Source of the DNA: Marinitoga piezophila KA3
GTDB taxonomy: Bacteria > Thermotogota > Thermotogae > Petrotogales > Petrotogaceae
Direction of reading: 5' to 3'
Length of the DNA stretch: 64,000 nt
Assembly: GCF_000255135.1 (NCBI RefSeq)
Contig: NC_016751.1
Coordinates: forward strand, 1,302,001-1,366,000
Numbering within the stretch: position 1 is the first letter of the stretch; each line of letters starts with the position of its first letter. This document shows positions 17,812-53,117 of the stretch, one piece after another. A model generated the notes under the pieces. The model saw only the letters and a list, made by a program, of their open reading frames with translations. It did no database searches and was not told the DNA's origin. Made by a program: the position numbers and the translations under genes.

Positions 17812-17814
17812 GTG

Positions 17815-18155
17815 GAGATTCACGTTCATGTTAGTACTTTTGGTGTTGATTGAAAAAATAAAAACTCCTTTAGGCGAATTGAGTGCTAATCTTCGAAAAA
17901 TCTCTTTGAAAGTAGAAAAATAATATTCACTCAGACGGCAAGAATTTCTAATCCTCGCTCCATTTGAAAATTCGGGCGCGCTCAGACACTTCGTCCATGA
18001 AGTGCTTCGCTTTCCAAAACCTCCTGTTTTTCCAACCCGAATTTTCTGCATTCCGCTTCGGGAAATTCTTAGTCTTCGTTCATATTATTTTTCTACTTTT
18101 TTTTATATAATCAGGCACTCTGCAAGTCTTCATTCGTTTTTATTTTTCTAAATCA
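17815..18155. repeat. Nested palindromic repeat, copy 1
   Basis: No gene is credible here. The region folds on itself at several levels. Outer arms near 17848-17895 and 18109-18154 pair through GATTGAAAAAATAAAAAC and its near complement. Middle arms AGTAGAAAAATAATAT (17911-17926) and its perfect complement (18082-18097) pair next, followed by AAGAATTTC against GAAATTCTT. An 11-bp stem GAAAATTCGGG (17966-17976) / CCCGAATTTTC (18036-18046) closes a core holding two hairpins, CACTTC-gtccat-GAAGTG and AAAAC-ctcct-GTTTT. It belongs to the family also found at 24.6, 28.5 and 52.7 kb and lies between tmk and the Cdc6-like ATPase. Confidence 0.85.
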
Positions 18156-18166
18156 CTTAACAAGAA

Positions 18167-18216
18167 TTGTCACAATCGTCTACAAGGATTCTACAGTTGT
18201 CACACAGTCACAATTG
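18167..18216 (+). repeat. 50-bp direct repeat, upstream copy (iteron-like)
   Basis: This 50-base block matches 19420-19469 at 46 of 50 positions, the last 30 being identical. It contains TCACA, TCTACA, TCTACA, TCACA and TCACA units spaced 9, 11, 10 and 8 bases apart, i.e. on roughly one face of the helix, and ends in CAATTG. It overlaps the probable -35 region of the ATPase gene. Confidence 0.93.
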
Positions 18217-18227
18217 TATGTTATAAT
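18197..18227 (+). promoter_or_regulatory. Probable promoter of the Cdc6-like ATPase gene
   Basis: A perfect TATAAT (18222-18227) lies 21 bases before the ATG. A TTGTCA (18197-18202) 19 bases upstream could be the -35 and lies inside the 50-bp repeat, so a protein bound to the repeat would block or steer transcription (inference). Confidence 0.55.
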
Positions 18228-18248
18228 AATTAATAGGGGGTGATGATT

Positions 18249-19418
18249 ATGGATAATGATAAATTGAAATATATAATTTCTTCACTATTTGATGTCCCCA
18301 TTAGCAATAAAGATTTGCTTGTAGATAGGGAAAAAGAATTAAAACATTTAAATAATCTTGCATATTTTCAACCCATGGGAATTTTTGGAGTATGTGGTGA
18401 AACTGGTGTAGGAAAAACTACTGTTTTGAATTTTATAGAAACAGCAGATTCCACAAAATTCAATATATTAATTACTGAAAAAGATTCTAAAGAGGTTATT
18501 ATAGCTGATTTTCTTTATAAATTATCAAAATTATCATTATCTTTAAAAAATAAAAATATAGAAAAAATAGCCCTGGAAGCAAAAGATTTTATTTTAACAG
18601 AAAAAAGTTTTAACTCAAATTATAGCGGGGGAATAAATGCTTTTGCAAGTGCAATGTATGAAAAAGGATTGTCAAATAAAAAAAGATTTAATATATATAC
18701 TATTAAGGAGTATATTGAAAAATTGCTTGAATTATTGATAAGAGAATATGGAAAAATTTTAATTGTAATAGATGAATTAGATAAAGAAAAAAAAGATGAA
18801 GTTCTGAATATTCTTGATTCTTTGAAAAATATACTTTTAAAAGAAAATGTTATTACAATTGTTTCTTTACCTTTTTCAATTTATAGGGAATACTCTAATG
18901 ATAGAATGCGATGGAATGAGAGTGGAAATTTAGAAAATATTTTTAAAGATATGATTTTTCTGGATCCACTTACAAAAGAAGATATAAAAAAATTAATATT
19001 AAAACGTATTAAAGATTATCCTGATTATTTTCATATTAATGCTCTTGAAGAAATTGCTTCTTTTAGTGATGGGAATCCAAGAGATGCTTTATGGCTTGCT
19101 CAACAAATTGCTTTATATAATACAGATAAAAAGAAAATTGATGAAACAACTGCCAAAGAAACTATAAAAAGTATTTTTTTACGAACTTTTTCTAAAATAA
19201 AATCCTTTACCGAAATACAAAAAATTATCCTAAAGGAAATTATTAAAGAAAACATAGATAGAACATCATTAGTTAAAAAATTACAGAAAAAAAATATAAA
19301 ACGGCAAACAATATATACTTATATTACCCGCTGGAAAAATGAAGGATTAATTTTAGAAAATGATGATGGAATATTATCTTTACCAGCAAAAGTAAAATAT
19401 TATGTAGAAAATTTATAA
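18249..19418 (+). CDS. Orc1/Cdc6-like AAA+ ATPase with C-terminal winged helix
   Basis: 389 residues from the ATG 8 bases after GGGGG. Walker A is GETGVGKTT (50-58), Walker B LIVIDELDK (171-179), and the SFSDGNPRDALWLAQQ segment (271-286) matches the sensor-2 region of Cdc6-type AAA+ proteins. It begins, like them, with a VDREKELKHL entry segment (25-34). Residues about 320-389 form a winged helix (TSLVKKLQKKNIKRQTIYTYITRWKNEGLI). This plan fits proteins that load helicases or act as DNA-bound switches; ExeA/TniB-like ATPases are the alternative. The gene stands alone, with a matching 50-bp repeat on each side. Function is not established. Confidence 0.8.
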   Translation: MDNDKLKYIISSLFDVPISNKDLLVDREKELKHLNNLAYFQPMGIFGVCGETGVGKTTVLNFIETADSTKFNILITEKDSKEVIIADFLYKLSKLSLSLKNKNIEKIALEAKDFILTEKSFNSNYSGGINAFASAMYEKGLSNKKRFNIYTIKEYIEKLLELLIREYGKILIVIDELDKEKKDEVLNILDSLKNILLKENVITIVSLPFSIYREYSNDRMRWNESGNLENIFKDMIFLDPLTKEDIKKLILKRIKDYPDYFHINALEEIASFSDGNPRDALWLAQQIALYNTDKKKIDETTAKETIKSIFLRTFSKIKSFTEIQKIILKEIIKENIDRTSLVKKLQKKNIKRQTIYTYITRWKNEGLILENDDGILSLPAKVKYYVENL

Positions 19419-19419
19419 T

Positions 19420-19469
19420 TTGTCACAGTTGTCTACAGAGATTCTACAGTTGTCACACAGTCACAATTG
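19420..19469 (+). repeat. 50-bp direct repeat, downstream copy (iteron-like)
   Basis: Matches 18167-18216 with four substitutions, all near the left half and all transitions. It starts two bases after the ATPase stop codon and runs directly into the terminator, so it serves no downstream gene as promoter. The same five TCACA/TCTACA units are kept. Confidence 0.93.
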
Positions 19470-19501
19470 AAAGAGATGGAATTTTCCATCTCTTTTTTTA
19501 T
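19470..19501 (+). terminator. Terminator after the Cdc6-like ATPase unit
   Basis: AAAGAGATGGAA / TTCCATCTCTTT stem followed by a T run, abutting the downstream direct repeat. Confidence 0.85.
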
Positions 19502-24633: not shown

Positions 24634-24957
24634 TTCGAAAATAGAAATAATAATATTCATTCAAACAGCAAGAAATTCTAATCCTCGCTCCATTTGAATT
24701 TTTTTTATGTTGAAAAAAGTTCATTCATACGACTTGAGTGCTAATCTTCAAAAAATCTCTTTGAAAGTAGAAAAATAATATTCACTCAGACGGCAAGAAT
24801 TTCTGATCCTTGCTCCATTTGAAAATTCGGGCACGCTCAGACACTTCGTCCATGAAGTGCTTCGCTTTCCAAAACGTCCTGTTTTTCCAACCCGAATTTT
24901 CTGCATTCCGCTTCGGGAAATTCTTAGTCTTCGCTCATATTATTATTTCTATTTTAT
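24634..24957. repeat. Nested palindromic repeat, copy 2
   Basis: It fills the whole gap between nagA and the HD-GYP gene. The outer arms AAAATAGAAATAATAATAT (24638-24656) and their perfect 19-base complement (24937-24955) carry changes relative to copy 1 on both sides. Inside lie a second left arm resembling copy 1 (around 24767-24805) and a core almost identical to copy 1: GAAAATTCGGG / CCCGAATTTTC closing CACTTC-gtccat-GAAGTG and AAAAC-gtcct-GTTTT. The right arm overlaps the stop codon of the HD-GYP gene, and the left arm begins just before the nagA ribosome site. Confidence 0.85.
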
Positions 24958-26717
24958 TTTATATCATCTTCCTGTATATTTTTCATTAGTTCATATAATT
25001 TGGAGCTTTGTTTGTCTACTTCTTCCCATAATTTTCTCAGGTCTTCGGAATACTCTTTGAATATTTTCAATACTTCTGGATGGAAATGTGTTGGTTGTGT
25101 TCTATTGTCTCCCTCAAGAATTATTTTTAACGCCTTTTCGTGTGAAAATGCTGGTTTATATGGCCTTTCTGACCTTAATGCATCATATACATCTACAACA
25201 GAAACTATAGCAGCTTCAATTGGGATTTTATCCCCTTCTAATCCAAATGGATAACCGCTTCCGTCATATTTTTCATGATGATATAATGCAATGTTTTTAG
25301 CAAGTTTGAACATAGGTGCGTCACCTATTAATAATCCACCGTAAATTGTGTGTTTTTCCATTATTTTCCATTCTTCATTTGTTAATTTTCCTTTTTTCAT
25401 TAATATGTCTTTTGGAATCATTAATTTTCCAATATCGTGTAATGGCGCATAATACTTCATTTGATACACTGTATGATGATCTAAACCCATTTTTTCAGCT
25501 ATAAATGCCGAAAGCTCTCCAACTCTATTAACATGATTTCCGGTATTTTCATCATAACCTTCAGCGATTATTGAAAGTTGAGTACTAAAGTTTAAGTATG
25601 ATTCTTCTAATTCATTATTGACTTTTTCTATTTCTTTGTATGAATGTTCTAGTTCTTCGTTCATTGCGTTGATTTCTTCAAATGATGACATTATGTCTTC
25701 TGCCATTTTTTGATATTCATCCATTAATTCATTTATTTCTTTTATTTCACATTTTTCAAACATTCTATCAAATTCTAAGTATTTTGTTTCTCTGAATTTT
25801 TTCATATTATCTACCATTAACTCAAATGGTCTTGAAATTTGTTTTGAAACTTTTCTTGCTTTTATTGCAACTAAATACATTATTATAATTAAAGCTAATA
25901 TAAATATTGTTATGTTGTATATTAAAGCATTTCTGAGCATCCCAACATCTAATTTTAATACTATTCCAATTGGTTTGAATGTTGATTTTTCATCTTCATA
26001 GCTCCAGGTATAATAAAAAATCAGTTTGTTTCCTTTTTTTATTATTATTTCTTTTCCAGTGTCAAATGCTTTTTTCAGATATTCAACATCTTTGTCTGTT
26101 AAATCGTTTTCTTTGCTTGAAAGATTTTCAAAATTATGCGTGCATATATCAATTTCATCTATGAAATTGTATTTTTCCTCAAGAGCATGAAAATTATCTA
26201 ATGTATTTTTTATTTTATCTACGGAATATGATGCTCTTATTAGATAATATTCATTATCTATTTTTAAATAAATATCTTTTAATAGTTTTTCTGAGGTTAA
26301 TTCAAGTTCAAAATAGTATTTGTAATTTTCAAGTTTATCTAATTTTTCTTTGATTTTTGAATTTAATTTGTTGTAATCAATTTTCTCTATACTTGTATCA
26401 CTATTAAAAAACGCGTATTTTGATATGTTTTTTATTGTTTCTTCTTTGTTTTCAGAAGTTTTTAAGGCTTCTATAAATCTCTCCAACCCTTTATAATATC
26501 GAACATCAAAATCATATAATGCATTTGATAATGAGGTGAATGCCATATTAACAATTTGTACTGCATTTGCTTCAAATTCTTTTTCTACACGTCCAAGATT
26601 ATATAGGCTAATCATGCTGAATATCATTATTACTGAACCTATTCCAATTATTACTATAGTCATTATATTTTTGATTATAAGATGATAAAGCGTTATTTGC
26701 TTATCTCTTTTTCTCAA
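24954..26717 (-). CDS. Membrane HD-GYP domain protein
   Basis: 587 residues from a TTG start 6 bases after GAGGTGA; an ATG at 26747 is possible but worse placed. Two membrane segments (about residues 10-35 and 265-285) enclose a roughly 230-residue extracytoplasmic helical sensor region. A coiled coil follows, then an HD-GYP domain: GNHVNRVGELSAFIAEKMGL, APLHDIGKLMIPKDILMKKGKLTNEEWKIMEKHTIYGG, ALYHHEKYDGSGYPFGLEGDKIPIEAAIVSVVDVYDAL. The HD and the GSGYPFGL form of the GYP motif are intact, suggesting cyclic di-GMP hydrolysis. There is no GGDEF domain. The stop codon lies in repeat copy 2. Confidence 0.9.
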   Translation of the reverse strand: MRKRDKQITLYHLIIKNIMTIVIIGIGSVIMIFSMISLYNLGRVEKEFEANAVQIVNMAFTSLSNALYDFDVRYYKGLERFIEALKTSENKEETIKNISKYAFFNSDTSIEKIDYNKLNSKIKEKLDKLENYKYYFELELTSEKLLKDIYLKIDNEYYLIRASYSVDKIKNTLDNFHALEEKYNFIDEIDICTHNFENLSSKENDLTDKDVEYLKKAFDTGKEIIIKKGNKLIFYYTWSYEDEKSTFKPIGIVLKLDVGMLRNALIYNITIFILALIIIMYLVAIKARKVSKQISRPFELMVDNMKKFRETKYLEFDRMFEKCEIKEINELMDEYQKMAEDIMSSFEEINAMNEELEHSYKEIEKVNNELEESYLNFSTQLSIIAEGYDENTGNHVNRVGELSAFIAEKMGLDHHTVYQMKYYAPLHDIGKLMIPKDILMKKGKLTNEEWKIMEKHTIYGGLLIGDAPMFKLAKNIALYHHEKYDGSGYPFGLEGDKIPIEAAIVSVVDVYDALRSERPYKPAFSHEKALKIILEGDNRTQPTHFHPEVLKIFKEYSEDLRKLWEEVDKQSSKLYELMKNIQEDDIK

Positions 26718-28020: not shown

Positions 28021-28480
28021 ATTTTTATCCCTCTCTTATATTATTTATATAGATGCTGGTGGTATAGTGATGTTTATTGTTGATATGTTATTGTAATTAT
28101 TATTATAAATGAATTTTATACTGTTCATAATTTTTTTGATTTTTGTTGATATGAAAAAATTTTTATGTTGATAAGTGTACATGCGAATATTTGTTCTATA
28201 AAAAATGTTGAATTTTATTAGATGGTTTATAATTTTTGAACTTTGAACGTTGATTGTTGATATTAATGTTGTTGAATTTTTTCTATGAACGAAGATTGGT
28301 TGAGAAGTTATGAACTAAATTTAGAGTTAACAACTTTTTATGTTGATAACTTTTATAATTTATATTTTAAGCGAGTTATATGTTTTGAACTTTGTTGGAA
28401 ATTATAAACGAAAATAGTTTTTAATGGAGATTTATGTTGGAAATTTAATTTAATTATATCATATCTGATGATTGTTGCAG
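28021..28480. other. AT-rich gene-free region
   Basis: About 460 bases, around 80 % A+T, with many scattered GTTGATAT and TTGTTGA words and no credible reading frame. One imperfect hairpin, GTTAACAAC (28326-28334) against GTTGATAAC (28342-28350), is the only clear structure. It must contain the promoter of the leftward exported-protein gene, but I cannot place it. Confidence 0.6.
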
Positions 28481-29085
28481 ATTTATGTTCATATTCGTCT
28501 TTTTGGTGTTGATTGGAAAAAATAAAAACTCCTTCAGGCAACTTGAGTGTTAATCTTCGAAAATTTTTTTTGAAAGTAGAAAAATAATATTCACTCAGAC
28601 GGCAAGAATTTCTAATCCTCGCTCCATTTGAAGTTTCTTTGTGTTGGAAAAAATAAAAGTTCATTCATACAACTTGAGTGCTGATCTTAGAAAGTTTTAT
28701 GGAAAATAGAAATAATAATAATCGCTCAAACAGGTAGAAAATTCTAATCCTCAAAAATTCTCGTTCCCGCCGGTCGTTGCAGACTCACATCCATGTTTGT
28801 CCTTTTGTGTTGTTGATTGAGAAAAATAAAAACTCCCTCAAACGACTTGGTTGCTGATCCTCGAAAATCACTCATTCTCGGCTGTCGCTTAGATTCTGCA
28901 TCCCTGCAGAAGCTGCGCTCAAAAAAACATCCTGTTTTTTTGACAGCCTCCATTCATGATTTTCTCGGGCAACCTGCGAGTTTTCGTTCGTTTTTATTTT
29001 TCTCAATCATATTTATTTCTTTTCGGGAAATTTCAAGCCTTCGCTCACATTATTCTAACTATTTTTTTATTTTGCAATTAGTGAT
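28480..29085. repeat. Nested palindromic repeat, copy 3 (largest, composite)
   Basis: About 600 bases with several left arms in alternation (around 28510, 28575, 28645, 28700 and 28815) but fewer right arms. The best pair is GATTGAGAAAAATAAAAAC (28815-28833) with its perfect 19-base complement (28990-29008). Inside, GAAAATCA (28863-28870) pairs with TGATTTTC (28957-28964), and GGCTGTC (28880-28886) with GACAGCC (28942-28948). The core again holds two hairpins with TCC loops: TTCTGCA-tccc-TGCAGAA and AAAAAAACA-tcc-TGTTTTTTT. Sequence differs from copies 1 and 2, the architecture is the same. Confidence 0.82.
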
Positions 29086-52689: not shown

Positions 52690-53117
52690 TACGGTCGTTG
52701 CAGACTCACGTCCGTGTTTGTCCTTTTGTGTTGTTGATTGAGAAAAATAAAAACTTCCTCAAACGACTTGGTTGCTAATCCTCGAAATTTATCTTTGAAA
52801 ATAGAAAAATAATATTCACTCAGACGGCAAGAATTTCTGATCCTTGCTCCATTTGAAAATTTTTTGTGTTGGAAAAAATAAAAGCTCTTTCAGGCAACTT
52901 GAGTGCTGATCTTCGAAAATTGTTCGTTCTCAGGGGTCGTTGCAGACTCACGTCCGTGTTCGTCTTCACTCAAAATCACATCCGTGTGATTTTGCCCCCT
53001 TCCACTCACAATTTTCTCAGGCACTCTGCGAGCCTTCACTCGCTTTTATTTTTTTCAACTATCCTGTCATCACCGCTTCGGGAAAATCTTAGTCTTCGCC
53101 CCTATTTTACTATTTAC
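52690..53117. repeat. Nested palindromic repeat, copy 4
   Basis: Left arms of both types occur (around 52735, 52797 and 52868). The best pair is GTTGGAAAAAATAAAAGC (52868-52885) with 53042-53059, complementary at 17 of 18 positions; both sides differ from copy 3 in matching ways. The core has AGGGG against CCCCT and a perfect hairpin AAAATCACA-tccg-TGTGATTTT (52972-52993), with a smaller CAC-gtcc-GTG nearby. A block GGTCGTTGCAGACTCACGTC appears twice (52693 and 52935). It ends 65 bases before the AAA/nuclease gene. I see no gene inside. Confidence 0.82.

Follow-up and report, generated by a model that had tools for sequence, protein, structure and literature searches.

An Orc1/Cdc6-like ATPase gene and its flanking five-box arrays as a candidate recombinase-less exchangeable module in Thermotogota

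Small modules that lack a recombinase of their own are known from Acinetobacter plasmids, where the pdif modules, delimited by short sites, are exchanged as whole units. Among initiator-related proteins, Orc/Cdc6-related ATPases were listed as virus-associated in an archaeal dark-matter survey (PMC4158269), which does not appear to describe a unit composed of such an ATPase and flanking arrays; no earlier description of the unit was found in the open-access literature. Here, we analyze a locus of Marinitoga piezophila KA3, whose genome consists of two contigs of 2,231,407 and 13,386 bp, within a stretch of 64,000 nucleotides (positions 1,302,001 to 1,366,000 of contig NC_016751.1) that is referred to as the window. 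The reading that we consider probable is that the locus encodes an autoregulating DNA-binding ATPase of the Orc1/Cdc6 fold, and that the arrays on its two sides are the ends of recombinase-less, exchangeable modules bounded by direct repeats.

The unit is delimited by two direct repeats at 18,167-18,216 and 19,420-19,469, which are identical at 46 of 50 positions, including all of the last 30 bases, and start 1253 bp apart. Position and identity agree with a preliminary description of the same DNA, which reported a 50-bp direct repeat bracketing one ATPase gene; its further statement that no other copy was noticed in the window is correct, as a 28-base core was found there only twice with up to three mismatches allowed (100 shuffled sequences gave none). 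Elsewhere in the genome, the prophage MPV1 contains a third copy (85% over 54 bp). The block, here called an array, consists of five GTCACA-like boxes at intervals of approximately one helical turn (in order, GTCACA, GTCTACA, TTCTACA, GTCACA, and GTCACA); their starts are spaced 8-11 bp, which places them on nearly the same helical face, a phasing conserved across the phylum. This five-box structure, along with the subfamily-specific array types, the ATPase-less cargo modules, and the phage copy described below, was absent from the preliminary description.

All components of the unit lie on the forward strand. The upstream array (18,167-18,216; 51 bits with array model R1) has boxes starting at 18,169, 18,178, 18,189, 18,199, and 18,207, the fourth of which coincides with the -35 hexamer GTCACA (18,199-18,204) of a putative promoter predicted by consensus match at 18,199-18,227, followed by a 17-nt spacer and an extended -10 element TATAAT (18,222-18,227). 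The ATPase gene, the sole ORF between the arrays, extends from an ATG at 18,249 to a TAA ending at 19,418 (389 aa; an alternative GTG start is possible at 18,240) and is followed, two bases past its stop codon, by the downstream array (19,420-19,469; 55.5 bits with R1), a direct copy of the upstream one, and immediately thereafter by a predicted intrinsic-terminator-like hairpin (19,469-19,496). Separately, a dispersed non-coding repeat has one copy at 17,813-18,112, immediately before the unit, and others at 24,730-24,968, 28,476-28,632, and 52,699-52,861 of the window; its copies share stretches of 157-239 bp with 85-95% identity, and similar sequence is present at other Marinitoga loci.

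The predicted protein contains a Walker A motif (GETGVGKTT), a Walker B motif (IDELD), a sensor-2-like GNPRDA segment, and a C-terminal helix-turn-helix, all of which had been proposed previously and are both present and conserved. It passes the Pfam model ATPase_2 (PF01637; 37.6 bits against a gathering cut-off of 33.2) as well as the cut-offs of KAP_NTPase and AAA_22, passes no NCBIfam family, and has weak, partial matches in PADLOC and PHROG. Against TIGR02928, the Orc1/Cdc6 family model, it scores 16.2 bits, far below the cut-off of 181.3, and the match of a paralogue (L002) is also weak (28.1 bits, 8.5e-7). AlphaFold yielded a good model (mean pLDDT 85, pTM 0.75), the top Foldseek match of which, in agreement with the initiator-type fold suggested earlier, is 2qby_A, the Cdc6/Orc1 protein of S. 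solfataricus bound to origin DNA (E 2.7e-11, TM-score 0.46-0.48), followed by ORC/Cdc6 chains, an archaeal Walker-type ATPase, and RuvB; the model thus has the AAA+ plus winged-helix architecture of Orc1/Cdc6 initiators. Because the fold is like that of Orc1/Cdc6 but the family model fails, the protein is designated here as Orc1/Cdc6-like and not as an Orc1/Cdc6 initiator. Sequence-specific DNA binding by this ATPase is strongly implied, the protein has no nuclease domain, and the minimal module encodes no recombinase.

Of 103 Thermotogota genomes from 38 genera, 36 genomes (16 genera) contain homologues of the ATPase, some of them fragments. Two peptide patterns, scanned against all of GTDB in a search that would miss distant relatives, matched Thermotogota only. 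As proposed previously for a protein conserved together with its own sites, nearly all orthologues retain the repeats: arrays stand on both sides in direct orientation in 34 of 36 distinct full-length members, with both near the gene in 32, whereas the second array is unrecognizable in two (L011 and L035). The downstream copy is partial in L045, and in G069 the second array lies ~6 kb onward, beyond glycosyltransferase and flippase genes. The starts of paired arrays around the ATPase are 1227-1316 bp apart, a near-constant unit size, and arrays are much more alike within a locus (mean identity 0.93) than between loci (0.60), a pattern observed in 30 of 30 loci. Two array types correspond to two forms of the putative recognition helix, which reads [KR]QTxYTY[IV] in the 13 GTCACA-type members and R[ST]T[AS]Y[SD] in the 23 GTCGA/GTCGG-type members; this co-change represents a single split of the tree and is therefore consistent with recognition of the boxes by the helix without proving it. 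The distribution of the unit is patchy and laterally transferred; in at least one case the transfer is clear from the tree, in which a GTCGA (Pseudothermotoga-type) copy of G063 nests in the G090-G094 clade with support of 100/100. Degraded forms also occur, such as a gene copy in G002 that is broken by stops and whose two arrays have drifted to 91%, and several genomes (e.g., G001, G006, G066, and G081) have arrays without any ATPase gene. In G059, the gene is split into two parts on opposite strands 54 kb apart (G059:C1:1788353 and G059:C1:1842797), the N-terminal part keeping the upstream array and the C-terminal part the downstream array, as after an inversion through the gene.

Sequence-only array models run over the Thermotogota genomes located 112 arrays in 46 genomes. 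Neighboring arrays (54 pairs within 35 kb) always share one orientation, with none inverted, although this 54/54 overstates the independent evidence because the ATPase-holding pairs share ancestry; 36 pairs enclose the ATPase or a remnant of it, and 18 enclose other genes. The modules between arrays measure 1-25 kb, have their own promoters, and carry glycan gene clusters and defence proteins, including AbiLi/PDC-M38, PDC-S39, HEC-01, HEC-02, and PARIS-like proteins. Occurrence of the repeat at many unrelated loci had been named in advance as an argument against an ATPase-and-repeat unit; arrays do occur elsewhere, but as edges of related modules, which leaves the unit standing.

Comparison of related genomes shows such modules to be present or absent as wholes. 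An array-ATPase-array unit in G003 occupies the site of a single array in G001, with flanks of 87-88% identity reaching the array on both sides and an adjoining PF09820 nuclease-ATPase gene mostly deleted in G003. Another Marinitoga locus has array-ATPase-array next to an MFS gene in G003 and G002, whereas G001 and G006, neither of which has the ATPase anywhere in its genome, have array-[MFS, radical SAM]-array there. Similarly, the outer flanks of G077 and G081 are 95% alike and the array-bounded modules differ, with the ATPase and other genes between the arrays of G077 and two defence-like modules plus a 3' remnant of the ATPase between those of G081. A remnant of the ATPase C-terminus precedes a solo array in G025, and five identical arrays are spread over two contigs in G027. 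For the window copy (tmk locus), no clean empty site was found, the flanks in six other Marinitoga genomes without the element being too variable. The best reading of these observations is that the arrays are the edges of exchangeable DNA blocks, that is, of recombinase-less modules bounded by direct repeats. The earlier suggestion that the repeats end a mobile unit holds insofar as the unit looks mobile, in the empty site of G001 and in the module swaps; movement itself we infer. Genes for PF09820-PDDEXK_9 and AAA_14-DUF4143 proteins repeatedly adjoin arrays (L148, 4999-6558; L157, 5205-6797; L149, 5908-8719; L072, 962-5959).

Arrays also occur in phages. MPV1, which is present in the source genome (identical over the 456 bp compared), carries one solo GTCACA array (55 bits), which has a putative antitoxin gene on one side and tRNA-Pro on the other and precedes the gene for the terminase small subunit. 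The non-coding block that holds the array is found at 89% in the phage fragment L167 as well. The block is kept there despite different neighboring genes, so the phage probably benefits from the solo array. In MCV1 and MCV2, the GTCACA array is absent and a partial GTCGA array is present. The array patterns found in IMG/VR comprise two Marinitoga phage arrays (L166 and L167), one partial GTCACA match (L168), and short partial GTCGA matches; no relative of the ATPase was found in IMG/VR, and the ATPase is encoded in no plasmid or phage record searched. The non-coding block before the terminase small subunit gene is conserved in Marinitoga phages (L085, 10045-10500; L167, 1340-1790; L177, 4960-5400; L178, 4670-5070) and comprises a terminator, GTCGA-type boxes, tRNA-Pro, GCCGG boxes, and, in MPV1 and L167 only, a GTCACA array. 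The GCCGG boxes were considered as a third array class and rejected, as elsewhere in the genus they fall in apparent coding sequence; GTGCCGGAAA tandem boxes resembling those of the phage block lie within the apparent coding sequence of another gene at G003:C1:2433991 and G004:C61:3322. A function tied to the host plasmid was likewise rejected, given that the array models found no array in the host's own 13.4-kb plasmid and that no plasmid-phage similarity appeared at the setting used.

In the explanation that we favor, the ATPase of the ~1.25-kb module most likely binds, via its winged helix, the five phased boxes flanking its own gene. Since box 4 is the -35 hexamer, protein bound to the upstream array would cover the -35 region and thereby repress the gene, and the previously suggested autoregulated switch stands in its geometry, with repression as what that geometry would imply. 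The two direct arrays would form the module edges, between which a block of DNA could enter, leave, or be exchanged for another, with one array left behind, and the same arrays would delimit ATPase-less modules with defence and surface-glycan genes. The minimal module encodes no recombinase, so exchange probably relies on host factors, for instance array-to-array recombination of the RecA type with a circle as intermediate, a route that fits both the leftover single array and the exclusively direct orientation. The ATPase-array complex would help this exchange and might also start replication of the circle; the ATPase may drive exchange, replicate the excised circle, or only guard its own site. 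DNA binding, repression, circles, and a role of ATP hydrolysis are thus elements that we infer.

Alternatively, the ATPase might be an autoregulated DNA-binding protein and nothing else, the paired arrays acting as operators through looping or titration, the other arrays being operators or relics, and the modules changing by ordinary homologous recombination. The overlap of box 4 with the promoter-like site, the capacity of 46-50 bp repeats to recombine unaided, and the persistence of ATPase-less arrays would all suit this account, but the downstream array, between stop codon and terminator, would be an oddly placed operator, and the alternation of single arrays with array-ATPase-array units, along with lateral spread, needs more than regulation; plain deletion between short repeats could explain the loss of modules, not their spread. 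Arrays as plain operators of the cargo were rejected, since cargo genes occur on both strands with respect to the arrays. We regard the purely regulatory account as unlikely. In a more ambitious proposal, which we judge improbable, the ATPase would be a genuine initiator acting at the array as its iteron origin, so that an excised 1.25-kb circle would replicate and re-enter at any array. The origin-bound Cdc6/Orc1 as best fold match, the near-constant unit size, and phased boxes (five, 8-11 bp apart, beside the gene, as in iteron replicons) adjoining an A+T-rich promoter region are in its favor, but the low TIGR02928 score, the lack of the protein in plasmid and phage records and in IMG/VR, and the array-free host plasmid argue against it. 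No clean GC-skew switch was found at the locus, where origin activity had been suggested earlier, and a chromosomal replication origin was rejected.

Two further alternatives give the ATPase other roles. A TnsC/TniB-like helper acting at element ends, with a transposase supplied in trans, would explain why an AAA+ protein is found with repeats at the edges of an element, and a very weak TnsC sequence match exists (E about 0.1), but the ends are direct and not inverted, a site without the ATPase retains a lone array, the first 50 fold matches do not include TnsC, and no transposase gene recurs in the ATPase neighborhoods. With sequence, fold, and neighborhood all failing to support it, a TnsC/TniB-type ATPase was rejected, and the grouping with transposition ATPases that the preliminary description had named as decisive against its reading did not appear; we consider a helper role very improbable. 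An insertion sequence or DNA transposon was also rejected, given the direct ends of every array pair and the ATPase as the only ORF between the arrays. An anti-phage sensor recognizing arrays in phage DNA such as that of MPV1, its own arrays merely setting its level, would agree with the defence genes in many modules and with the solo array retained in a conserved non-coding block by MPV1 and a second phage fragment. However, a phage would be expected to lose such a target site, not to conserve it, and no defence family matches the ATPase meaningfully; we consider this the least probable of the accounts. Exchangeable modules ended by the arrays of an autoregulating ATPase remain our preferred explanation.

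The findings point to a type of mobile genetic module that has not been described; it is placed outside known classes because the membership tests failed and a search of the open-access literature gave no precedent. More tentatively, and as something short of probable, the ATPase and the five-box array could constitute a new class, a 1.25-kb self-mobilizing (possibly self-replicating) recombinase-less module whose array would serve as a phylum-wide attachment site for exchanging defence and surface modules, perhaps also phages. If true, this would be a mobile system that encodes a single protein, an initiator-like ATPase, and is bounded by the sites of that ATPase, a route by which defence genes are shuffled in Thermotogota, and a tractable bacterial Orc/Cdc6 relative acting outside chromosome replication.

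Similarities to known systems are accompanied by clear distinctions. Like Orc1/Cdc6 initiators, with which archaea and animals begin DNA replication, the Marinitoga ATPase combines an AAA+ and winged-helix fold with repeated sites beside its gene (bound in their case), but it falls far below the family cut-off, its host bacteria use other initiators, and its arrays are direct, lie on both sides of the gene, and also surround unrelated genes. Archaeal-type ATPases of PF01637 (Pyrococcus 2qen and Sulfolobus 2fna) are close in fold, and their Pfam cut-off is passed, whereas the Marinitoga protein has neither a DUF234 nor a nuclease domain; to our knowledge, conserved flanking arrays have not been described for such proteins. 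Iteron plasmids share phased direct boxes beside the gene of a winged-helix protein and a promoter overlap suggesting autoregulation, but the Marinitoga unit is chromosomal, has arrays on both sides, and encodes an AAA+ protein, and no plasmid form was found. Integron cassettes likewise form serial modules in one orientation with related sites between them; unlike them, the modules described here apparently have no hairpin attC sites and have no integrase among the neighboring genes examined, measure 1-25 kb, and have their own promoters. The pdif modules likewise lack a recombinase, have short sites as their borders, and undergo exchange as blocks, whereas the sites in Thermotogota are 46-50 bp five-box arrays, exclusively direct and distinct from Xer sites, with a putative site-binding ATPase encoded in the smallest module.
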